A stretch of DNA of 64,000 nucleotides, from NCBI GenBank assembly GCA_011033025.1, contig WFMF01000083.1, positions 1-64,000 of the forward strand, given 5' to 3'. Source of the DNA: Beroe forskalii (taxonomy: Eukaryota > Ctenophora > Nuda > Beroida > Beroidae). The notes below the pieces were generated by a model. The model was not told the DNA's origin. It saw only the letters and a list, made by a program, of their open reading frames with translations, and did not search any database. Of this stretch, positions 23,801-59,680 are shown one piece after another. Position 1 is the first letter of the stretch; each line of letters begins with the position of its first letter. A program made the translations under genes and the position numbers.

Positions 23801-26226
23801 GATAGGCAACCGCGCCGGACGTAAATAACACAAAAGGCTTGAATCCAATGCGTATTTTTAGGCCACGAGTGACCTGACACATCCACCCATTATTGGATGC
23901 AGTCCAGTGATCATTGATCTTCATATGAATACAATATACACAGATGTATTTGCTCAGAATTTGGAGTGATGAGGCGATCATTTATCATTCGCACAAAAGC
24001 CACGGATTATTCTGTGGAAGAGTAGAAGCAAAATTCGTATTCAAAGTTCTACACAAGTGACTCATGTTAGTTAACTTTGCCGATCGTAGCTTCATACTTT
24101 TCCTACGTTTAAAAGCACTCACTAGTAGCAAGACTTCTGGATTTCCAACCAGTGCTATAGCAGCAGATAGCTTTCTCTTGTTCCCACCACTATACTTGTA
24201 ACACTGCATATCGCTGTACTGATATGGAATAAAGTGTTTCAGTAAAGATGCGATATATTCTGACAGATTATTCAGGTCTTTAGTCGTGAGAATTTTCTGT
24301 TAAGACACACGAAATATTGGAGGTTTTTAGTGATAAACAGCGAAATAAGGTTAGTAACCAAAGATTATATAGAGCAAACTGAACTACCTACACTGCCTGA
24401 AGGAGATCCTTCATTTGGCTCACCTTTTGTAGGCCAAGTTGTTTTATGTAAGTGTCTGCTGACTTCCCAGGGTCTTTGACACCGTGTATGGAAGCGAATA
24501 GAGTTAACATCTCTCTTCCTGTGAGCCTGAAGAGCAATGAAGAATAAAGGGATATATGAAATAAATCGTCACGATTTTAATTGTATAGTTGTTTCAGATT
24601 AGAAAATAAAAACCAAATTCGGTTAGCCCAAAACCCGAAACTTAAAGGACGAGTAAAGCGAAGAAATTTTGTTCAAATATCGTTCTGAGACGTTGTACAC
24701 AGAATCTAGGGCAATTCTCTAATCTAATCGTTAAAAAACGAAGATTCTACCACACCTACAAGACGAGATATTCCCTTCCATATATTTATCATACATAACA
24801 TGCAGTTGATGTCGGAATTTGGTCCCCTTCCTATCCACGCGACCTTGCATGTTATGTATTTTGCATGTTATTAATCTTGCGTTTTGGTACAATTATCCAT
24901 CCCATATGAGTGGTTAAACACTGTTTTGCTTCGTCTAGTGGAATTCTCAATTCTATGAGTCAATAATAAAAACCAACAAATCCATCTAATTAGTAATCGA
25001 GGCGTGAAAAAATCAATCAAAACCGTCAAAAACAGTGGAATAAATACTGTGTTTACATAGGGAACTCAGGGTGTAATTTGATACTGGGGACCATACTGCA
25101 TCATATTTTGCGCCTAGAATTGCTCTTTGATTTAGCTATAGCGTGCGGTAGGAAGTGAATAGAAACATCGGACTTTGACTAAAGTGCTTTTAATTATGAT
25201 ACCTATCATAATATGAAATATTTTGTATACCTTAAATTTCGCTTTACTCGTCCTTTAAGTAAGAGTGACACATCGGAGAGTTAATCAGACAACGATTCTT
25301 GGAAACTCCAGAATTTCCACACTTGCATAACTTTTAAAGTTTAAACAAGAACTCTAACTCTTTCTAAAGTCTCTATCTATCATTTAACCCTTCACTCAGT
25401 GGCATAGCTGTAGCTAGAACTGAAGAACTCACGTGTTGATGACAGCATCGAACTGCGGACAGTAGCCCAGTAACTGCTGGACCTTGGACAGTTCCGTCAC
25501 GACACAGTGCCCACCCACCGTAGCGTTGCCTTCCGACACACTCAACGCTCCAGTCAACATGTTGAACGTTGACGTTTTACCCGCACCGTTAATACCGAGC
25601 AAGCCGAAGCACTCGGCCTGTAGAGTGTTCAGAATTTAAGAATTCGAAAGAAAATGACGCAACAAATTCACAAAATTGCTGAAGTAGAGACTGATAACGG
25701 TTATGATTCATCAACATAAATACAACTGGATTGTTTGAGGGCCCCCTTTGAGAAATAAATTCCGATAAAAATCCAAAACCAACCTTCTTCACGCCAAACG
25801 TGATGTTTTTAACTGCCTTGTGGTTGAACTTTGCCGTTGCTTGTCGTTTTATCGTCGCTAAAAGCCATTCCCAGGAGCGATTTGTGTATCGCTTTGATAA
25901 CCCTGCAAAGGATGAGCGATCACTTATTTTGGAAGGATCATAATGAAGTGATGCAAATGATAAAAAAAGTCCAATGGTACTTTCTAAGATTCATCTCTGA
26001 CTTACCATTGACAGTCAGTATATCATCTCTGACTTATCATTGACTGTAAGTATATCATCTCTGACTTACCATTGACAGTAACTATATCATCTCTGACTTA
26101 CCATTGACTGTCAGTATATCATCTCTGGCAGTTCTAGCCCTATGACTCTCCTCCTCAACGTCAGTATTAGCTGCAGTGTCGTCACAATCAGGCGTTTTGA
26201 CGACCTTCCTCTTCCGAAGCGTGTAT
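20899..26226 (-). CDS. ABCA part 5: NBD2 and C-terminus (exons 40-47)
   Basis: Exons: 26226-26102, 25902-25784, 25617-25433, 24526-24424, 24296-24123, 21742-21546, 21369-21189, 21027-20899. Walker A is GINGAGKTS (about residue 1889), Q-loop GYCPQFDAV, signature [15 protein letters not shown] (about 2011), Walker B split between exons 44 and 45 (EVLLL / DEPTAGMDP), H-loop TSHSMGECE (about 2066). The last exon has the family block [21 protein letters not shown] and then a short basic tail. The usual Glu after SM in SMEECE is Gly here. Confidence 0.93.
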
Positions 26227-29200: not shown

Positions 29201-32200
29201 GAAGTATACCCATCAAAACGGACAGTACAAACAAATTCGTTGACTTTCTAACTAATTTGTTGTCGTGCTAAAAAATTTGGTTGTGTTTACCATCGTGAGG
29301 GTCGGGTCATTAGGGAATCTCTCTAGTGTGAAGACGGAGTAACTGGTGGTTACTGCCACGAACAGGTTGAAGCACATCAGCGTTACGTACGCAGCCGAGG
29401 GTATCCTGGAAAAGACATGAAGTGTGATAGTCGGCAGTGGACCATGAACATCGCAACCTCATGATGCGAGTTTTCTTCAATCAATTAGAAGAAAACCTTT
29501 GTTTTCAATGCACTAATTTTATTAAACCATGTTAATGTTATGAATGACAGACGGCGTAATTTTCGACAGTATCCAAGGAATTGGTCATGAGTTAATGAGA
29601 ACGGAAAATGTTATCAAACAAAGATACAGCGTAAATTTATAATTTATGATAACTGATTCTTGATTGAAAAGTTGATAGAACTGGGCAAAGAATTTCCTCA
29701 TTAATTTTCAACATACTACTACTACTATGATAATATTATACTTTTCAGAGAGTTAGAATTAAAATTTTTGACCAAATGAGCAAATGACCATGCGCAATGT
29801 AATCTAATACTTCAATGTTCAACTTGCTTATACTTAAATTACACTGTTGTATAGCATAATTCTTGATATCATTAAAATTATCGTATGAAGGAAACTTAAA
29901 GCTAAAATTCCCAGGGGAATTTGTAAATTTACAACACAGATTTCAATGATAGCTGGCTTGATTATGATATATCTACTAATAACAATCTGTTATATAATAC
30001 TCGTTTAGTACTATAAATCTATATGACGTCACTCTTAATTACAATGGGTATGTGATGACATTCTATGAGCAGTAAAACGTCAATAGGCACTCAGATGTGA
30101 CTACCATTTTATGGAAGAAAACAGTCAATTGTTGGCGTCATACCACGGCGCTTCTGCGTGGCCACCAATTATACTGCTCATCTAATAACGTGTTGTAGCA
30201 CCAGCTCATATTTTAATTGTTCTTTGAACTCCTCATATATTCTGATGTTTTGAGAGCAGAAGTACAGAAGTGACTAAGTGAGTACAATAGAGCAAGTACA
30301 TTAACGTCAACTTTTGTCTGTTTTGTAGATGTAATGAAAAACTCTAATAAGTAAAAGAGTAAAAGGTATAATAAGTGCCAGATGTTCGAGCCACAGCATC
30401 AATATTAAATCTAATCATAATCATAAGCCGATTGGCAATTGAAAATATATTTTAAATTGGTTGGATGATTTAAATTGGTTTGATGATTTAAATTGGTTTG
30501 ATGATTGGATATATCAATGACGCGAGTGTTTTACTTTAACGTCTACACTCTCCATTTCACTTCTTAGAAAAGCAATTCTTAAGTTCTAAGTAGGCACTGT
30601 GTACCTGTGTGTAGTTATTCTTTTATTTGAGTGTTTTCGGGTGAGTAGGCTCAATACTTCAATTTTTCAAAAGAGCGATAAAACATTAAACAAACATAGT
30701 GAAATATAAACTTATGAAAATTAAATTGGCTGAAAGGTTAGTTCACAACGAAATAACTTTCTCAGTATTTCATTAGGAAGATAAATTTACAAACTAACTA
30801 CTTATCTAATTAATAATAAGGGTAAAAGACTCACTTGAAGAAGAAAGAGGCAGGGTAGAACATGGGTATTGAGGCAAAGCCGTAGAGTATTATCATAATG
30901 ATAACAGCACCAATCTCCTGAAACGAGAAATGGATTTTTATTGCTGCCAAAATTGTATTTTATATTTGGTTTGTAAATAATATGATTTGTTAAGTTGTAA
31001 ATACGATATAATATAATATTATTAAGATTTATTAATCATTCTCTCAAAAGTTTCCCCGCATCTAAGATCTAAACATTTTTTATGATTTTGAAAACTTATT
31101 AACTTATGATCATTATTATCAAAAGGTTAAAACTTTAAACAAGTCATACATTCACGAAAGCCTCCTGATCGAATCCAATGAAGAGTACTGTAGCCACCAC
31201 AGTAGGTAGCATGAAGTTTAGCATGTCCCATACAAAGTTACTGAGCCAGTAGATCATCGGACGAACTCCTGAATTATAGTGGTGAGTGTGTGGGTCATCA
31301 GATATGAAGAGCTTTTAAGAGGATATAAAGGATTCATTATATTGAATTGGATCATATTTCCATCATAGATATCAGTACCTACAGTAGATAAGTTGATATA
31401 ATATCAAATACTGAAATAAATTCATAGAGGTCGGCATGGACATTGGACATACTAAGATACTACGAGAGCATGAGCTCACAATGCCACATAAGGCAAATAT
31501 TACACTTCAATCAGTTTTCAAGGGTTTCACAGATCCAACCTGCACAGAACTGCAGATGTTTGGCGTTTGAACTCCTCTCAGCCACCAAGTACACCACAAA
31601 GCTGGTCGGCACGAAACTCAGCCCCACAATGATGAAGATGCTGATGACAATGGGCACCCCCTGGTAGATGTACTCTCTCGAGGTCTGTACTGCTGTCTCG
31701 TTCAGGGCCTGGGAGTGAGATGTCAGCGAGAGCTGAGGAAAACGGAAATTTTTTGTGAGAGAAAGTGAATATGGAAGCCAAGAGGGTGTAAGCACAGCAG
31801 GAGTGCAAAGAGAAAACTGAATGATGAGAAAACTGGAAAGCATGACACTACAAAACCTTGCTGACATTTATCACTTTGAGTATCAAAATAAGGAATATAA
31901 GTCAAAGATCACTCTGATGAAAACCCCGCATTTCAATTTCAATTCAGAAACCCTGCATTTCCCTTCACAAAAGCACAAAACCTTGCATTTCACTTCACAA
32001 AACCCTCACCTGAGCTGCGAGAGTAATGTGGTGGGAGGAGCCAGTGTTCCGCAGGTACATGTTCCTCAGCGCGTTCACTCCCGTGGGGAGGGCGTGGTAA
32101 CCCTTGTTTAGGTAATAAGCCTTGGCTGAGAGGGGAGGGGTGTGTTATTTGAGGAGTGGGGAGGGCGTGGTAACCCTTGTTCAGGTAATATGCCTTGGCT

Positions 32201-35200
32201 GAGAGGGGAGGGGTGTGTTATTTGAGGAGTGGGGAGGGCGTGGTAACCCTTGTTAAGGTAATAAGCCTTGGCTGAGGGGAGAGGGATGAGTTATGTGAGG
32301 AGTGGGGAGGGTGTGGTAACCCTTGTTCAGGTAATAAGCCTTGGCTGAGGAGGGAGGGGGTGAGTTATGTGAGGAGTGGGGAGGGCGTGGTAACCCTTGT
32401 TTAGGTAATAAGCCTTGGCTGAGGGGGAGGGATGAGAGGTGATTAACTGATTTATGAGGAGTGGGGAGGGCGTGGTAACCCTTGTTCAGGTAATAAGCCT
32501 TGGCTGAGGGGGAGGGATGAGAGGTGATTAACTGATTTATGTGAGGAGTGGGGAGGGCGTGGTAACCCTTGTTCAGGTACAGTGCCTTGGCTGAGGGGAG
32601 AGGGTTGAGTTATGTGAGGAGTTGAGAGGGCGTGGTAACCCTTGTTTAGGTAATAAGCCTTGGCTGAGGGGGAGGGATGAGAGGTGATTAACTGATTTAT
32701 GTGAGGAGGGGGGGGGCGTGGTAACCCTTGTTTAGGTAATAAGCCTTGGCTGAGGGGAGAGGGGTTACTGGTGAGTTGTGTGAGGAGTGGGGAGGGCGTG
32801 GTAACCCTTGTTCAGGTACAGTGCCTTGGCTGAGGGGAGAGGGTTGAGTTATGTGAGGAGTTGAGAGGGCGTGGTAACCCTTGTTTAGGTAATAAGCCTT
32901 GGCTGAGGGGGAGGGATGAGAGGTGATTAACTGATTTATGTGAGGAGTGGGGAGGGCGTGGTAACCCTTGTTCAGGTAATAAGCCTTGGCTGAGGGGGAG
33001 GGATGAGAGGTGATTAACTGATTTATGTGAGGAGTGGGGAGGGCGTGGTAACCCTTGTTCAGGTAATAAGCCTTGGCTGAGGGGAGGGATGAGAGGTGAT
33101 TAACTGATTTATGTGAGGAGTGGGGAGGGCGTGGTAACCCTTGTTCAGGTAATAAGCCTTGGCTGAGGGGAGGGATGAGAGGTGATTAACTGATTTATGT
33201 GAGGAGTGGGGAGGGCGTGGTAACCCTTGTTCAGGTAATAAGCCTTGGCTGAGGGGAGGGATGAGAGGTGATTAACTGATTTATGTGAGGAGTGGGGAGG
33301 GCGTGGTAACCCTTGTTCAGGTAATAAGCCTTGGCTGAGGGGGAGGGATGAGAGGTGATTAACTGATTTATGTGAGGAGTGGGGAGGGCGTGGTAACCCT
33401 TGTTCAGGTAATAAGCCTTGGCTGAGGGGGAGGGATGAGAGGTGATTAACTGATTTATGTGAGGAGTGGGGAGGGCGTGGTAACCCTTGTTCAGGTAATA
33501 AGCCTTGGCTGAGGGGAGAGGGGTTACTGGTGAGTTACGTGAGGAGTGGGGAGGGCGTGGTAACCCTTGTTTAGGTACAGTGCCTTGGCTGAGGGGAGAG
33601 GGGTGAGTTATTTCAGGAGTCCTGGTTTGTACTTCCGTGATAGAAGTGTCAAGATTAGTAATTACAATCATCAATACTATGAACTTTGACTACCGATCGT
33701 CAATAATATCTAACGATCATGCAAGAATGACAAATAATTTTTCCCCTCCAGGTTGGGATTGAAATAGATAAGCTCTGAAAGTTCCTGGAAAAGCCATGAT
33801 AAGAGCTGAAAATTTTATAAGAAGATACAATTTCCACAAGTGCGCGCCTCTTGAGTGAATGAGAGGGCCTGTCCGGCGTCCGTACTCTTTGAAAATGAAA
33901 TCTTAACGTATTAACAGAAGTTTGTCAGAGGTTTTAAATTGATGAGCAACCCCAATTCTAAGGCAAGACTGAAAACAACTTATGATATGAGACGGACCTG
34001 TTTGTCGTTTAGCTGAGTAATCGGACTCGTACTCAGGGTTAATGTCCGTGCGGTGGTCATCCAGCGTGAACGCTACGTACCTGCAATTCAGTGATAGCAT
34101 TATAAATTAATTAAATAACAAATGTTTTTATGTAAATGGTTGTGTAAATTGTGAGTAAGTGTAAGAGAAAATTTTGCATGGCATGTTCCGAAGATTCTTA
34201 GCGAATGCAGGAGTTAAAAGGTTCAAATTTTAAAGTTTCAAACAAAATGCACAAATGAAACAATGTCATTGAAACGAATATATTCTATCTTTTGAAAGAT
34301 TAAATCTGTATATCATTTCTAATTCAAGAATTTTCCACTACTGTATACCACATTACCACGCCCCGCTTCCTTCTCACTCTATCCACTCTCAGCCGCATAT
34401 TTCTTCTGGAAACTCTCCGTACTATTAACTTGCGGGAACTCCCTGTCTGGAACAGGCACCTCCAAGAACTCACAAAGCGGACCCCATCCTTCCTTAACGT
34501 TAAACACAAGGATATTCCCTGGAGGCACACTGGCCCTCACCCGCTCATTCCACTCCCGGTACACAGCAGGCAGATCACACTCCACATCACGGGGGTCTAC
34601 TCCGTGCTCTCTAATGCAGGTCTTGATGATGTTCCTGAAGAACTGAGCCAGTTGACTGCTACCATCATCCCCTGGGCTCCTTCTGATGGGGTCGTTACGG
34701 AAGATGGTGGCTCGAGCTGACTTTGCCCACACTTCCGGAGAGTCTCTAACAGAGAGAATTATTTTCGCTTTTGGGTTGAGTTTGATGAGTTGCAGGTAGA
34801 AGAAGTTACCAGGGTAGTCCACCACGGCTTTATACCCTGCTAGCATGGAATTAAGAGCTGCTTCGTCATTAGGGTTGTTGTAGAGGGTCTCAGTGATCTG
34901 TCCGATGTTCGGTTGTTTCATAGCATCAGTGAAGTGGTGACAGGGGGAGAATCCTAGCTCTTCTAGAGCTGATTTGAGGGATAGGGTACCTGTCCTGCCG
35001 AGCCCTGCTCCGATAACTTGTAAACCAGACATGCCAATGCCTAATAAGGTGAAAGAGATAGATTAATAGAGGTTATTGAGAAGGTAGTCTAGATTAGATA
35101 GAACAAAAGAATGGGTTCAATGTCCTTGGTATTTTGCATTGAGGAATGGTTAGTTGTGTGCGCTAGAACTGTATTGAGTTTCACAATCTTGTTGCTCAAT

Positions 35201-41200: not shown

Positions 41201-44200
41201 TCTTGGGAATCAAACTCTTCTTCCTGTAGGCGTTCAACGTCATCAATGTCAAATGAGGTGCGATTTTATAAATTCTAATAGTGAGCAGGTTATAAGCTAT
41301 AATGAATTTCATATTAAAGTATTAACTTCTTACGTTCTATTTCTTGATAAGAAAAATAAAAACCTACTTCAGTATTTAATAAGTTCATAGATCAATATTT
41401 TTCAAGGTAAGGTTACTGTACAGTGTACTACCCAGTACCCACACTAGAATTTTATGCAGTTATTCTTTAAATTTTCTAGTCAGATCATTGATCATGCAAA
41501 ATGATGATCCTATAAATTTGTGAAGCACTTTTGCACTTCTTAATTCCTTTCTGCTTTTATGTATTTATGAAATGCAAAAAATACAAATAGTTAATGCTCA
41601 GTGTGTTCGGTTTCGCCCGTGTCCTTTTGTTCTGCTAAGATCATTTGTTTTATTTTCAATTATTCCATATTTGGAATAATCAACGGAGCCGTGAGTTTTA
41701 TTTAAGGCAAGTAATGTGTATTTCACGCGCATTGTTGGGTGCCTTGAATTGAATTTTTTGGGCTGCAGCACGCCAGCACATATTCTTATTAAATGGGCGC
41801 GTGTATTATATTATGAAAACGGAGAACACTCCCGAAATGAGAATTTATTAGTTCATCTTGACTATTATATCCTGTTCAATATAGGGTATTGCTAATTGAT
41901 TCTAATTACTGTGCAGTTGCCCAAAAGCCCCAGAGTCCCATATCAGGTGAACGGTCAGTGCAGTTATTGTTAAAAGGCTAAAACATATTTTCATAGTAAT
42001 CTTACTGTAAATCAATGTCGTTATTCGGATCAAACAAAAACAGATTTGACACGGAGATTGATATAATTTAAACGATATAAACACAAATTATTGGACAATC
42101 AATGGGCCAATCAGATCAAATGGTTAACATTAACTCAACTGTTAGAAATGGCTCATATTGGAACCAGTTGAATGAATCTTTTGCTATGTCCACCTGACAA
42201 AATGATGAAAGGATTTTCAAGAAGACAAAAACAGAAACTTAATCTTCAGTTGCAGCTCCAGCTCAGTTAGTAAGATGTCGATCAACAGAGACTTTATCCT
42301 TTGATTATTGATCATGAATGATGATCATAGTTAATTACTTAATCGAATCATTAACAATTATTAAGGAATTAAGAAGATAATTCACAGCTGAAACTCGGGT
42401 ACTGTAGTGTTTTCCCATGATTGCTAATGATAACAATATAGGAGAATTAATGTTGGGAATGATCAACAAATGAAGAACACCACTCAATCACATTTTTAAA
42501 GATTCTGAAAATCCTGTGATAGTAAAATTGAAAGAAATGAAAAAAAGAAGCAATCAAAGATCAATTATTAAGAATTTGATATGTTCCTAATAGTTTTTCT
42601 AATATAACGCCATTGGCGAAGTTTTTGATGATCGCAGCAAACTTCCAACACTTACTTTTTAGTCAGTGCTTCCATTTTAATTACAGCCAGACTGTTCATG
42701 AATTCATATTATTCACTGCAAAGTTAAATACCCATGGTTTTGATAATAAGCAGTGGAATTGAAGCGAAAGGAAGCAATGCAATTATAAAACTGGACCGTA
42801 CTTACTTACTTATTTTATACTTACTGTTGAATTCATTCCTCGATTGTTGGAACTTCAGAAAAATGATTAAAGAATAAAGATCCATTCTTGAAAAATTTCA
42901 GGAAATTAATAAATTATATTGCAATCGAGGTATACGAATATTCTATCATTATCAATTCATCATCATACGTGATTGCCGCACTATATAGAGACAGCGCACT
43001 ATATAGAGACAAGCTGTTTTGGAGCCAAACTTCACATTCTCTAAATAGTGCGTAAAAACACTATATAGAGACAACGCACTTTATAGAGACAATAGAATTC
43101 TATGACTTGTATGTACAACTGATAACCAGGTCTGACTGGGACAGCTTCCTCCAGAAGGCTTGCATGTAGAGGAAATAGCATCCTTCTGGAGAGCCATCTC
43201 GTAGTCCCCCAGCACAGAGTTAGGATGGAAGGGTCCCCGGGTGTCCAGTTCCTCCAGAAGATTGGTGTAGAGGATCTCCATTTTCCTGGGAAGCAGACCG
43301 TAGGAGCAGGGAATCCTCAAGCCGTCATCAAGGAGCCCATGGACAGCCAGGAGCTGGGTGAACATGGAGGGAGCCACCTTGAAGGTTCCGTCGATGACCA
43401 GGTGAGGAGCTTCGGCATCCAAGGAGGGATTGAGCCTCGAAGTACGGCTCAGCTTGGCAGGCAGAAGCAAGGTGTTTGGAGGGGAGGTCAATGTCAGCCT
43501 TGTGGGAAGGAGGGGGTGGAGGTGCTGGAACATTGTCTGTAGAGTAGACATGGTGCGAATGGGATGCTTTGCCTGAATTAACGAGATACGCAACATGGTT
43601 TGGTCTGATCAAGTGCAGTTATCGGAGAATCATTGTACATGAGTACATGATATTGTGATTGCATGTTGTGTGGGACCAATGCAATGTGACCCGCTACTGC
43701 GATCACTAATAAGGCACGCTTGTACGCTTAATGAGGAGGTGTCTCTGTAGTGCGTTTTCACTCGGAGTATCTTCGGAACATACATTAACATATGGTCGAC
43801 ATTTTGTCTCTATATAGTGCGAAAAAACACTATATAGAGACAGTGCACTTTATAGAGAAATATAGTGCGGTGTCTCTATATAGTGCGATTACCATCATAC
43901 GTAATGAAGAATGTACGACCCCATGCATCTACCAGCGCACATACCAAAGGATAGGAAGTGAAGTACTTGTCGATACCCAGTCTGTTGAGCAGGGGGTTGA
44001 CACACCACTCAATTGGGAAGTACCAGGACCTCTTAGCTGCCCCGTGTTTTGATGGCAGCACCTGTGGGATGATTGAATGTAAATATATAATTGAGTGTGA
44101 AAAAACACAATGAAAACTTAAAAAGAAAAGAATTGTGAATGAGATCACTGCAGCTGGATTCAGAGCGGACGAGCAGCACATTTGACACAGAAATGTGTCA

Positions 44201-47200: not shown

Positions 47201-50200
47201 AATAAAGTTATACGTGATTAAAAAGGAAAAAAAAACTTACGTCACAACATTCGCTTCATGAGTAAGTTTCTTGTGCCATTTGAAAGTTTGAATTATCACG
47301 CTAACTTATTTCTGAGTTTCTGAGCCGATACGTATATATACGCCATCATAGGTTTATTAATTGAGAAATCGTAATTTGCCAGATACACGGGCTTTTTAAG
47401 ACTTTAGTGTTTGTTCATCATTATATATGGTAGATTATTACTATTCAAGTTTTTGTGGTCAACAGACCTTGATAAAATGCTCAATACTTTATTAATAAAG
47501 TATTGATAAAATATAAAATTGGACGATTGGGATTTATTTCCTTATCTAAACGCTCAATTTTTCATTATATAACGCCCAACGTTTACTTCTATAAAGACGC
47601 CAACAAACAAATTTTTCAACTCTATCAATTATCAAACTGAAGCATCCGAGCTGGTTATAACTTCTGGCTCGAAACTCTTTCACTGTCTCCTGCTAGCAGT
47701 CCTGCTCTTCGGCTCCTGATTCCAAGATACCATTCGGGCATATGAAGCCCCAACTTGGGCAGTATGAGACATGTCCTGAAATGTTGCAAGCCCTCCAAAT
47801 ATCTGTAATTCACCCTGCCTGTAGTCACAAATCTAAACTCGGTGATCTGAAAATGAGCGGGACGAGCGGGGCTTGAACCCACCACATATCATACAACTGA
47901 ATTTGAACCTTTATACTACTACCTCACTATAGGCGCAGCTTCAATGTGGTTGTGTGTTAGATATTTAAATTGCCGGTGCCACATTGCCCACATTAAACTG
48001 TTTTATACATACTATGATCTTCGCTGTGTTATAGTGTTATTTGTTCAATGTTTTGTTATGTCCCGATCTCCGTTACTTTCTCTGACTGCGGCCTTGTTAA
48101 CAAGGACGGGGCTGAGACAGCTCAGCAGAACACAGAACTTGTCGGAACTACTGGCATTGCCTCAAAACTGACCATGAGCAATTCTAGAGTTATAGTTTTA
48201 AAAACAACTATATTGTAAAGTAAATTTCCCGCAGTGGCAGTATCTAATCCCAATTATTCTCTGCAGTATGTCTGAAGAGAAGGACGCCCTCGTTAATCAC
48301 GAGGATGAGCTTCCCCCACTCTACAGCTCCACAGCCGCACAACACCGAGCCACTACGACCCCTGCTACCTCGTCTGCTATCTCGGGGGCCTCGCCAACCA
48401 ACCCATACGATATGACTAGCCTCGAACTCAATGATATCTACAAGCACATGGGAACAGGGAAAGCCCAGTACTTATACTGGTGCCTAACGGGCCTCATTTC
48501 GTATGCTGAATTCGTCGAACTGACAATGCTTTCTCTGGTTATACTGCCTTTGAGATGTGAGTGGGGCTTGACTCCGCAATTTGAAACCCTGCTAACTGTA
48601 GTAATCATGAGCTTTTACGGCGTATTTACTTTATTCGCGGGCAAAATAGCAGATAAATTCGGCAGAAAGCAAGTTTTCATCTATTCTGCAATTGGCATGA
48701 TAGGGACTGCACTAGCAAGTGCAATGGTGTCGAATAAGTGGGCTTTTCTGGCCCTCCGGGCTTTAGTTGATGGCTTTATAGGCGTGAACATCGTAGTAGC
48801 ATCGTGTTACGCAGTAGAATTTGCTCAAAGTAGCTACAGGATCGTAGGCATGGCCGTGTTCATCTTATGCGGCTACTTTGGTTTATTTGCCGTTAACTCC
48901 CTGGCCTGGGCTATCCTTGCTACTGCAGGCTGGCGGTGGTTCATCGTCATTCTCACAGCCCCAGGAATCCTGGCAGTCCTCTTAGCTCTCTACCTACCGG
49001 AGTCACCGCGTTATTACTGTGTGCAGGGCGAACAGGATAAAGCCATGGCAGCTGTCAGGTTCATGGCACGGCTAAATAAGACGGACATACCGGCTGATGT
49101 ACAAATGGTATGCCACAAAGATGAAGACACGGGCTCATACCGTGAGTTGTTTTCTCGAAAACACCTTCGATCTACCATTGGACTTAGTATCATTTTCAGT
49201 ACGAACATCTTCGCAGAGTACGGGATCGTTCTTTTTCTGCCACTCTATTTCTCTTCTAATGTGTGTGGAGTAGGGGAGGAAACACCCAAACATACCTGTA
49301 CCACACTCTCACAGTCTGATCTTCTCGATCTCAGTTTAGCCTCGCTCAGCACCATGATAGGAAGTATTTTGGCCCTGATTTCAGCCCATTTGATTGGCAG
49401 ACTATACCCAATCAGAGTGAGTACATTCCTTCAAGCGCTGTTCAGCGGACTGCTATTTATCTGTCTTAGCAAGACAGCGACAGTGTGGCAGGCTACATTT
49501 GTTAGGTTCTTTATTGCAGCTAACAATGCCTTCATTTGGATCATAATGCCCGAGACGTACCCAACTAGCATTCGATCCACAGCAATGGGGATGCTGAACG
49601 CGACGGCTAAAATAGGAGGGTTTCTAGGGACGGGGAGTGTGTTCCTTTTCTTTTATATTGATCCCAAAATAAATATCGGGTGTTTCTTTGGCTGTGCTCT
49701 GTTTGGAGTAATTGGAACATTGATATTCAACCAGAAGACCAAGGAGACTGACTTAACGGACACATAAACTTGTTTTATCTTACAATAGAAATGACTTTTG
49801 ACTGATGGATTGATGAGTGTGAAATGATTGGCATTTCATCTGGAATGAATCTGTTTAACTGAATCTGCTGTTGAATAACCCAGTCAATTGCAATAGTCTA
49901 ATAACTTACTAAAGTTTTAATTGGCAACATACTCTCAGATTCAGAAGAAAATTACTTTGAAAAAATTTATAGCTGATATTTACCAGGCTGATTAGTTTTG
50001 TTATGCGATTTCTGTTTGTTTAGTATGAGGGGAAATATATGCATATATATGGGTCGTATGAAAGCAAACCAATAACCCCAGGTGACCCTCCTGTTGACCC
50101 TCTACTGACCCTGGTAAACCCCTACTTATAAATATATTTGATATGATTTGATTGTAAAGTGCCGAAAAATTTATTAAACGTTGTTTCTCTCACGTTGTTT

Positions 50201-53200
50201 CTCTCCTGGTGAATCCTACTGACCCTCTGGGAACCCCTGGTGACCCTCTACTGACCTCTTCTGATCACTGTTTTATTAATTACACTTTTCATGACCGTTT
50301 TTGAAGATTTAGAAATACTTCTGCTCTATAAATTGAATTGTGAAATATTTTTATGGCCCCTTGATAAAAGCCCCAATTGTGGGTCCTAAGAGAGCCTTTT
50401 GGTCTAGAAATGGTCATATGAAGTAAAAACTGCCATTTCCCATTTAAATTTTAAATTAAACATAACAGATACCTAGTTCACTACACTGTAGATTCAAACT
50501 GTTATACAAAACTGACTTGTAAGTTGGCGACAGTGTAGGGAATATACATGGTGTAGAAGATCACAGCACTGACGACAGCAGCGAGTTTGCTCTGCACGAA
50601 GAAGACAGAGATAAGGAAGCAGACAGCGATGTTGCAGACAGTGAACATCTCCAGAAGCAGGTAGAGGATCACCCCGTTCGTAAAGTTGGTGATCTGCGAG
50701 GGATTACTGTTTGTATACTTGTATAGTACCTATAGATTAAAATACCCGACTTGAAGAAAGGGGACAGTTCCCTGTTGCTCTGTTCGTAACCGCAAGCAGA
50801 GGGGCCATAGGGAACAGCATTTCAGTGCAGTGGCTTGGTGCATTATCCAGAAAAGAAAATATCAGGGGATATAATGTCTGAAGGTGTCGGATTAGAGATT
50901 CGCCCACTGATGTCTTTCAACATTAATGTTCAGAACAACTTGGTTGTGTGGCATGTGTTGATCCGGGCTTAGTTTCGTGTACTTACCCCATTGTACTTGA
51001 GAATGAAGACCAGGAAGAAGTTGGTTACGCTAGCCGTGAGCAAGAGGGTGATACCCCAACCCCACCAGTGGACACCCTCGCCCAGACCCATCACTTTCAT
51101 AACCTGAGATAGGATAACGGGGTGATTTAAAGGGGAGCAGGGGGTGATACCCCAACCCCACCAGTGGACACCCTCGCTCACCCAGACCCATCACTTTCAT
51201 AACCTGAGATAGGATAATGGTGTGGGTTAAAGGGGAGAGTCCTATTTAATTGAAGAATTTAGCCGTACTAAGAAGTAGTTGCCAACAGGCAAGCTCCATA
51301 GTAACTTCAACCCTCAGACTCTCTTCGTAATACACCAATTCATCTCTTTGAGTCAACAGTGAAACAGTAAGTAAACATCCCAATCCCCACACCTCAATCC
51401 CCACACTTCAATACACACACCTCAATCCCCACACCCCTGACCCCACAACCCAATCCCCACAACCCAATCCCCACACCCTAATCCCCACACCCCTGACCCC
51501 ACACCCCAATCCCCACACTTCAATCCCAACACCTCAATCCCCACACCCCTGACCCCACAACCCAATCCCCACACCCCAATCCCCACACCCTAATCCCCAC
51601 ACTTCAATCCCAACACCTCAATCCCCACACCCCAATCCCCACACCCCAATCCCCACACCCCAATCCCCACACCCCTGACCCCACACCCCAATCCCCACAT
51701 CCTTGACAATGCCTCCTTACCTCTTTGAGTCGTCTCTCCTTCTCGTAAACTATCCTGAGGGTGCTCATAGCCACGATGTAAACCCAGCTGACCACCATGC
51801 AGAAGGGCAAGGACCGCGATATGACGAACAGGTAACGGTCGTTCAGCCAACATGGGTACGGGAACATCTGACATAATATCAGTAATGTAATAAACCAACT
51901 ACCTAAACAACTAAGGAACTAAAACCACATCATGAATGCTCGTATCCTCTGTTACCTAACTATATAAAAGCAGTAACCTCAGTGTAGAATCCCGGTAGAC
52001 TGAAGGTTCCGTTTGAAATGAGGCTGGTAATGCCACTCTCAATCATATCCTGAATGTAAACGAAGCCGTATACCCAGTATTGTCTGTCGTACAGGAAGTT
52101 GTACGGATAGCTACGCCAGTACCTGTATACGGGAATGCGGTTTACGGAGAACCTAATTTAAGTATTAACGGGTTAGTTAACGTGTTAGGTAACGTGTTAG
52201 GTAACGGGTAGCTAGGCCAATACCTGTATGTGGGAATGAGGTTTACGGATTTGAATTTGAGTAAACGGGTTCTAGGTAATCGGTACAGTGACACCCAAAG
52301 CAGAAACAAATTTCAGAATGATGATTGATGTCAAGACAGCTGCCTCACTGATTCACCAAAATATCCCTTGTAACTCACAGGTATCTGATATCTTTGAGAG
52401 GGGGCATGTAACTGCTTCTCATCCGTAGTTTGTAGCGAACGTTCGAGGGAAGGTCCGTCGCGTTGTCACCAAGATCTTCAAATGTCACTCCTGATACATT
52501 CCAACTGTGAGTGGGGGTACAACCAATAAACTTTCAAATAACCTAAATCATATTCAACTTGATTCTTTGATAACTATATGAACATTTGTAATTCGGTTTA
52601 TGAAGAAATCAAATATAATGAGCCAAGATTGGTCATAACTTCATCTATAATAAACTCTTAATATCTCCCATTCTTCCATTTTAAGACATTGCTTCATAAG
52701 AACACGTTTTCACCTGCCCAAAGCCATCTATCCTCCGACTCCTGGACCTTCACTGCTTCCAGTTCCATTTCTCTTTCTGTTTCAAAGCCAGTCCACCGGT
52801 CTAAAGAGAAGTTTGCAGAAAATGTGGACGCCTAAAAAGATTTAAGGGTTACATAGGTATAACACTTCACAAAAAGTTATTGAAATACTACTTAGTATGC
52901 TAGACCTTAAGGTCTAGCATGTTTAAGGTCATCAGACACAGAAAAACAGCGACTTTCTTGGTACAAACATGACTACTGGAAGGTACACAGACACAGAACC
53001 CAGCACATTATGAGATGATAGGTACACTTGTACAATTCTACATCTACTTGACATTTATTGTAAATTTACCATTGATAGAGCACCAGAGATGTTTCCCAGG
53101 AAGGCCGTGACGTTGTCTGGTGGTTCCATACCCGTGAAACCAATGAGAGATTGAATCACTGAACTGATTACCTACAACAGAGTTAAAGTTCTAAATTAGA

Positions 53201-58393: not shown

Positions 58394-59680
58394 GGCACAT
58401 TAGAGTTCCAACCATCTAAATTCGGCGCCAAATAGGCGCCGAATCGGCGCCGAATATAGGCGCCTATAGGCGCCTATAAGTTTTTCGGCGCCGATTCGGC
58501 GCCTATAGGCGGTGCCGCTTTTCGGCGCCTATAGGCGCCTATAACTGACATTTTTCATTTTTTCGGCGGTCATCGGCGCCTATAGGCGCCGATAAGCGCC
58601 GAATAGCGCCTATGGACCGCCTATCGGCGCTGTCGGCGCTTTTCGACCGCTTATCGGCGCCTATGTTTTCAACCGTCTATAGGCGCCTATAGGCGCCTAT
58701 AGGCGCCGATACTGTTTCTTCGTCCGATTTTGCGCCGATTTTGCCTTCTAGCAATCTGTGTTCTTCCGCCTTTTTTCTAAAAGCCTATAGGCGCCTATAG
58801 GCGCCGATGAATTAAAACAGTCCTAAATTGGCGTGCGCTTTCGTTTCCACGGTATGTCAGGTTAGGGGTTTGGGGTTAGGGTTAAGGTTTGGGTGCTTCC
58901 TAACTAGGGTTAGGGTTCCATTAGGGTTAGGGTTAGGGTTTAGGTTAGGTTTGGGTTTAGTTAGGGTTAGGGTTAGGGTTAGGGTTAGGGTCTGGGTTTG
59001 GGTTTGGGTTAGGGTTTGGGTTAGGGTTTGGGTTAGGGATTGAGTTAACCCTGACCCTAACCCTAACCCCAACCCTAACCCTAACCCTAACCCTAACCCT
59101 AACCCTAACCCTAACCCTAACCCTAATTCAACCCTAACCCCAAGTTTAGCCCTAATCCTGACCCAACGATGTTGCGGGCCAATTTAGGACTACTTTAATT
59201 CATCGGCGCCTATAGGCGCCTATAGGCGCCTATAGAATTTAGGCCAATGAATATAGGTCATAGACTCGGAGCTCAGCTAATAAAACTCATCCTCGCCAGT
59301 TCATGACTGTCTTAATTCATCGAAAAAGAGGAATAACATAGATTGCTAGAAATCAATATCGGCGCCTATAGGCGCCTATAGGCGCCTATAGGCGCCGAAA
59401 TATAGGCGCCGATAAGCGGTCGAAAAGCGCCGACGGCGCCGATAGGCGGTCCATAGGCGCTTATCGGCGCTTATCGGCGCCTATAGGCGCCGATGATCGC
59501 CGAAAAATGAAAAAATGAAAAATGTCAGTTATAGGCGCCTATAGGCGCCGAAAAGCGGCACCGCCTATAGGCGCCGAATCGGCGCCGAAAAAATTTTATA
59601 GGCGCCTATAGGCTCAGATATGATACCGATTCGGCGCCTATAGGCGCCGAATCGGCGGTTGGCACAAGTGGTAATGTGCC
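58394..59680. mobile_element. 1.3-kb foldback element with head-to-head telomeric core
   Basis: Two long inverted arms (about 58394-58855 and 59165-59680) are built from GGCGCCTATA/TATAGGCGCC palindromic units plus unique blocks that also match inverted, for example CAGTTATAGGCGCC and TAGATTGCTAGAA. Ends are GGCACATTA and TAATGTGCC. The flanks AATATATC (58386-58393) and AATACATC (59681-59688) look like an 8-bp target duplication with one mismatch. The centre is TTAGGG repeats (58861-59041) meeting CCCTAA repeats (59048-59155). No transposase is seen; ORFs inside are repeat artefacts. Confidence 0.8.
58861..59155. repeat. head-to-head TTAGGG/CCCTAA array
   Basis: Degenerate TTAGGG repeats with TTTGGG variants run to 59041, then switch at GATTGAGTTAACC to CCCTAA repeats up to 59155. 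This 5'-(TTAGGG)n(CCCTAA)n-3' orientation is the one seen at telomere fusions, but here it sits at the centre of a foldback element. Confidence 0.85.

Follow-up and report, generated by a model that had tools for sequence, protein, structure and literature searches.

The ABCA locus and the acceptor array

The window analyzed here, the first 64,000 nucleotides of contig WFMF01000083.1 from the ctenophore Beroe forskalii (assembly GCA_011033025.1), contains on its minus strand a partial ABCA1/4/7-like gene (20940-52122), one intron of which carries, in tandem, 19 copies of a 3' splice site with the start of the exon that follows it. Judged by its structural features, this array is a mirage, the name given to minisatellite-like duplications of exon-intron boundaries in the Adh3 and globin (BflGb6 and BflGb9) genes of amphioxus (PMC3087553, Ebner et al.), in a distant phylum and at a copy number above those in the available amphioxus accounts.

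The gene model, from which the 5' end is missing, comprises 34 exons hand-picked from a 74-candidate script chain and from homology; the selection excluded decoys, nested open reading frames (ORFs) and weak candidates, and it included manual placement of several exon ends. The joined exons match ABCA1 structures with an E value of 1.3e-287 over residues 4-585, 795-858, 1016-1211 and 1222-1593 of the 1598-residue query, and Walker A and ABC signature motifs are present for both nucleotide-binding domains, so that the gene shows the likeness over both halves and the two nucleotide-binding domains expected of an ABCA transporter. At least half of the length of 28 of the 34 placed exons lies inside the ABCA1-aligned stretches, and so do the exons of all three junction-spanning arrays found in this gene.

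The array (32083-33620, minus strand) was detected by Tandem Repeats Finder (TRF) with a period of 73 and 19.0 copies. It lies in the intron between the ABCA exons at 34080-33998 and 32125-32010, directly upstream of the latter. This genuine exon (32010-32125, minus strand) is 116 nt long, begins in phase G|CC, ends at the donor CAG|GTGAGG and shares its first 43 nt with the repeat; as its length is not divisible by 3, its omission from the mRNA would change the reading frame. The upstream exon (33998-34080, minus strand; donor ACAG|GTCCGT), for whose placement coding score, phase and splice sites were used, falls outside the ABCA1-aligned stretches, and the downstream exon (31540-31708, minus strand) begins after the acceptor CCCAG.

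Reading of the individual units, together with the TRF result, resolves the array into 18 decoy copies, 73, 74, 80, 85, 86 or 87 bp in length, and the genuine copy. Each decoy consists of a complete 3' splice site and the first 43 nt of the ABCA exon (CCAAGG...CCCCAC); after the 43 exon nucleotides come TCCTCA... and a pyrimidine tract that closes with CAG, the intron-derived part amounting to 30-44 nt per unit with the CAG counted in. Every unit thus spans the exon-intron boundary, as mirage units do. The acceptor CAG|CCAAGG is intact in 19/19 units, that is, in the 18 upstream copies and at the genuine exon start at 32125, and the exon-derived part of the decoys differs from the genuine exon start at 0 to 5 positions. 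The 14-residue peptide that it encodes is the same in 11 of the 18 copies and carries one changed residue in the other 7. Only from unit 19, the gene-proximal copy, which keeps the authentic junction, is the full exon reached. It is plain on sight that 19 near-identical units of 73-87 bp in series far exceed chance.

The first-pass annotation of this DNA had described an exon start amplified about 19-fold with its 3' splice site inside an ABCA gene, in units that each hold a pyrimidine tract, an acceptor and some 40 coding bases and of which the proximal one alone continues into the full exon. The acceptor count, the TRF copy number, the 43 shared nucleotides and the reading of the last unit all bear this out, and the alignment with 0 to 5 differences establishes the homology between units and exon on which that description depended. 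Of its unit size of 73-88 bp, the lower end holds, and the upper one is corrected to 87 bp.

Within the 216-Mb assembly the array was detected once, by a search that passes over simple repeats, and no second haplotype was seen. No G-quadruplex motif was found on the plus strand of the array, and no Rfam family matched within the window at gathering thresholds. The near identity of units 2-8 means that their number could have been misjudged during assembly; nevertheless, the units differ from one another in several independent ways and form an ordered mosaic, and similar arrays are present elsewhere in the genome, so that an artefact, whether of the copy number or of the array as a whole, is very unlikely.

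Splicing potential of the repeated acceptors

To score splice sites, position weight matrices (PWMs) were built from 14 acceptors of the host gene, the genuine one included, and from 13 of its donors; three donors (39967, 33997 and 21542) were left out for want of a GT with A or G after it. All 18 decoys keep the AG and the pyrimidine tract and score 11.1-14.8, compared with 13.0 for the genuine acceptor and 6.9-14.3 for the training set. They are plausible sites, and the earlier expectation that the splicing machinery faces some 18 decoy acceptors is well founded.

The further suggestion that read-through of the array could add repeats of a loop segment to the protein finds no support in the sequence. 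Between decoy and exon donor a stop is met in 17 of the 18 cases, and the remaining decoy (number 18) is out of frame; with 0/18 open in-frame extensions of the exon, a repeat-extended protein formed in this way was rejected.

The 35 GT sites in the array are poor donors, 34 of them scoring between -4.2 and 2.5. They comprise AGG|GTTACC (score 2.2, 19 sites), TCA|GTTAAT (-4.2, 10 sites), ACT|GTACCT (-2.2, 3 sites), CCA|GTAACC (2.5, 2 sites) and, in unit 1, a single CAC|GTAACT with a score of 6.0, use of which would give an exon whose 50 nt are not divisible by 3. For comparison, the donor of the 116-nt exon scores 12.7 and that of the upstream exon, itself weak, 6.1. The array is accordingly no Dscam-like series of alternative exons, in which every copy would be an entire exon flanked by its own splice sites on both sides. 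A rival reading is that the decoys are in-frame microexons of 24 nt (CCAAGG...AACAAGG|GTTACC), by which an extracellular loop would gain further copies of AKAYYLNK. The exon-chaining script did link all 18 as phase-compatible 24-nt exons, and some other chain ends, which may be misplaced, have scores down to 2.9-4.8. However, 24 nt is the minimum exon length of the script, in which strong acceptors outweigh the flat per-exon cost, and the donor AGG|GTTACC with its 2.2 compares poorly with the 7.9-12.7 of the 13 training donors; we regard such microexons as highly improbable.

Eighteen strong acceptors that lack a strong paired donor might also be expected to draw spliced-leader trans-splicing, which would yield 5'-truncated ABCA mRNAs. 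Against this, the acceptors sit in an intron that has an upstream donor, and in the ABCA frame 17 of the 18 run into a stop while one lies out of frame, which makes this route exceedingly doubtful.

The choice among the 19 acceptors is likely to be made through exon definition. The proximal acceptor alone would give a 116-nt exon with a real donor (12.7), whereas use of a decoy would produce longer exons with stops or in the wrong frame, which presumably go unused or are degraded. With its nineteen near-identical acceptors, the last of which is presumably the sole one to yield a functional mRNA, the intron offers a natural experiment on how 3' splice sites are chosen. If only the last acceptor is used, exon definition must override both order and strength. 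If decoys are used as well, copy number would amount to dosage control.

In this second case, part of the pre-mRNA would be spliced to decoys, the resulting mRNA, frame-shifted or with a stop, would decay, and the length of the array would tune ABCA output. The similar scores of decoys and genuine acceptor and the non-productive read-through of all 18 decoys speak for such a mechanism, and in human ABCA7 the length of an intronic variable number tandem repeat (VNTR) is reported to track the skipping of exon 19 and, inversely, expression (PMC5954066). On the other side, the available accounts of the amphioxus Adh3, TnC and globin mirages report that mRNA splicing is not disturbed (PMC3087553, PMC3902484), and there is no sign that junctions are favoured sites of arrays in the Beroe gene (see below). 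We consider dosage by decoys unlikely. Its extension to a copy-number rheostat, in which array length would set the share of ABCA pre-mRNA diverted into non-productive or trans-spliced products and unequal exchange would tune the transporter dose between individuals or cells, is slightly less probable still.

Turnover of the units and origin of the array

The units fall into groups. Likeness among units 2-8 is 99-100%, and unit 9 has the same sequence as unit 12; unit 10 comes close to unit 1 (96%), and unit 17 to unit 18 (97%). The edge units 1, 17 and 18 diverge from the rest of the array. Unit 17 has an intron part identical to what lies immediately upstream of the genuine exon. Such relationships fit minisatellite expansion with local homogenization, and homogenization inside the cluster that spares its boundaries is the concerted evolution known from mirages. 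The distal edge of the array reads AGGACTCCTGAAATAAC and an internal joint reads CCCCACTCCTCA, from which it appears that the original duplication joined exon and intron at a short common AC.

We propose that ordinary minisatellite turnover took in a splice junction and was tolerated since the exon-attached copy still works, an explanation to which we assign a probability of roughly 0.8. As the composition of the units indicates, a short tandem duplication would have copied about 30 nt of the intron end and 43 nt of the exon start. Unequal exchange or slippage would then have enlarged the array to 19 units, and its distal half was probably homogenized recently, both steps being suggested by the unit relationships. 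The copy attached to the full exon would still be spliced and the 18 others leave with the intron, so that the gene stays intact.

Several points weigh against this explanation. Use of the proximal acceptor is deduced from sequence, and the decoys, which equal the genuine site in strength by a small PWM, precede it in the order of transcription. The survival of the AG in each of the 18 decoys might point to maintenance, but is equally accounted for by recent spread. The difference between units is lower in their exon-derived parts (0.056) than in their intron-derived parts (0.127), a contrast not required of a purely neutral array, but the argument is weak, as is the comparison itself, because unit types are mixed; for the same reason these values are uninterpretable as a trace of selection on the exon-derived parts, and that idea was dropped. 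Lastly, the random-placement test described below draws on a single gene with 14 arrays.

Other junction-spanning arrays

Two further arrays cross splice junctions of the host gene. A donor mirage (25991-26127, minus strand), recognized by TRF and by reading, consists of four copies of a 32-bp unit that joins 25 nt of exon end to GTAAGTC: the genuine donor follows 26102 and three copies lie downstream, one of which has lost its GT (ATAAGT). All three extended exons (3/3) contain an in-frame stop. A second acceptor mirage (51038-51237, minus strand) is a 100-bp unit present twice, with the genuine start at 51103 and a decoy acceptor at 51203, and its one upstream copy (1/1) is frame-shifted with a stop. 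A possible additional acceptor duplication with an offset of 136 bp, TTTTCAG|GTGATACTAGACGA..., is a candidate at 1316-1534 on the minus strand, perhaps in the last exon of another gene. About 23 copies of a 14-bp unit (51375-51699) begin some 20 bases past the donor that follows the exon end at 51721, close to that junction but leaving it uncrossed.

Fourteen tandem arrays, counted as TRF rows inside 20.9-52.5 kb with overlapping rows merged by hand, cover 8.7% of that interval. Three of them cross any of the 68 junctions, against 2.96 expected at random placement (P(>=3) = 0.62), and the junctions covered by arrays are 3 against 5.5 expected (P(<=3) = 0.26). In the host gene, junctions are thus struck at about the chance rate in a minisatellite-rich region; special targeting of junctions by tandem arrays was considered and is unsupported there, although with counts this small there may be a modest excess or deficit. 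The region is rich in both minisatellites and introns, so that no particular cause has to be invoked for the junction arrays of this gene.

Elsewhere in the genome, tandem arrays fill approximately 9.5% of 54 sampled loci, some of which overlap, and 37 of the 54 have one. These loci were taken from a set of 64 from which the array locus (L001-L005), the mitochondrial loci (L030-L032), L063 and L064 were omitted. Arrays touching or near a family match (8 loci) were looked at in detail. An ABCB-like exon in locus L021 shows a 45-bp acceptor duplication whose upstream copy reaches a stop at codon 6. In L048, which overlaps L038, the end of an EF-hand coding exon has been tandemly duplicated with its stop codon and leads into a 33-bp minisatellite, and in L035 a tandem array lies over a coding end.

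Other features of the window and the genome

Three long ORFs or fragments, with putative identities assigned by reading, lie between ABCA exons: a sulfotransferase-like ORF of 227 aa (34379-35062, minus strand), a transposase-like fragment (43081-43618, minus strand) and a transporter-like ORF of 521 aa (48202-49767, plus strand). Nested intronic genes have been reported from another ctenophore, Hormiphora (PMC8527503). At 58905-59140 lie interstitial telomere-like repeats, first (TAGGGT)n and then (TAACCC)n.

The omitted locus L063 holds a cluster of five photoprotein-like ORFs on one contig; the one that was searched matches berovin best (E value 2.4e-133; 13 differences in 207 aligned residues) and mnemiopsin next. 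A search for the GFP family, made to assess an amphioxus origin, had no match, which by itself carries no weight because its control matched nowhere either. The mitochondrial contig (13.3 kb, 17.5% GC; L031 and L032) has TGA inside COX1 and AGA where Arg is expected, gene names being assigned by reading, and no tRNA was found in its first 10 kb. Two long ORFs follow an ORF read as ND5-like, as described for the mitochondrial genome of B. forskalii (PMC6991124). The photoprotein match and the mitochondrial features point to a Beroe-like ctenophore. Two mitochondrial ORFs, which begin at about 4310 and 7545, have some 50 residues in common close to their beginnings.

Comparison with known systems

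In humans, a minisatellite reportedly provides multiple splice donors to an interferon-induced transcript (6-16/IFI6); judging by the title of that report, it too carries splice signals, but these are donors, several of which are provided to the transcript. Human segmental duplications contain internal tandem repeats that sit at exon-intron boundaries; these are likewise variable junction minisatellites and can alter splicing, but some of them form new introns with transcript support, whereas the ctenophore array shows no new intron (PMC2812944). The ABCA7 VNTR shares with it the location in an intron of an ABCA gene and is associated, by its length, with splicing changes; its abstract calls it intronic and names no splice junction within the unit, and it belongs to a different phylum (PMC5954066). 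Intron gain in Drosophila can also proceed by tandem duplication, of proto-splice sites, but there the new intron arises inside an exon, while the ctenophore copies lie in an intron (PMC2891723). Amphioxus mirages have been proposed as a route to intron gain (PMC3087553); the Beroe array, which lies inside one intron, has the end of the upstream exon outside the repeat and offers 0/18 open extensions, does not have the form of such an event.

No ctenophore mirage was found among the papers listed in our literature searches, which falls short of proof of absence. The amphioxus cases, to which PGBD5 and TnC have been added (PMC3902484), resemble the Beroe array in that their units span a boundary, whether the junction is 5' or 3', in that AG or GT signals are present in many of the extra copies and in that the copy joined to the exon is kept (PMC3087553, PMC3902484). 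Their units measure 10-160 bp, a range that includes the 73-87 bp of Beroe, and BflGb6 haplotypes with 6 and 3 units are described (PMC3087553). RNA and length variation have been reported for amphioxus. The first-pass annotation had called the amplification unusual; its structure is familiar from amphioxus and recurs in the Beroe genome, and what does stand out is the number of copies, 19 at one acceptor compared with up to 7 in the available amphioxus accounts. The presence of an amphioxus-type structure in a ctenophore suggests that mirages follow from dense minisatellites and many introns and are not a chordate oddity.

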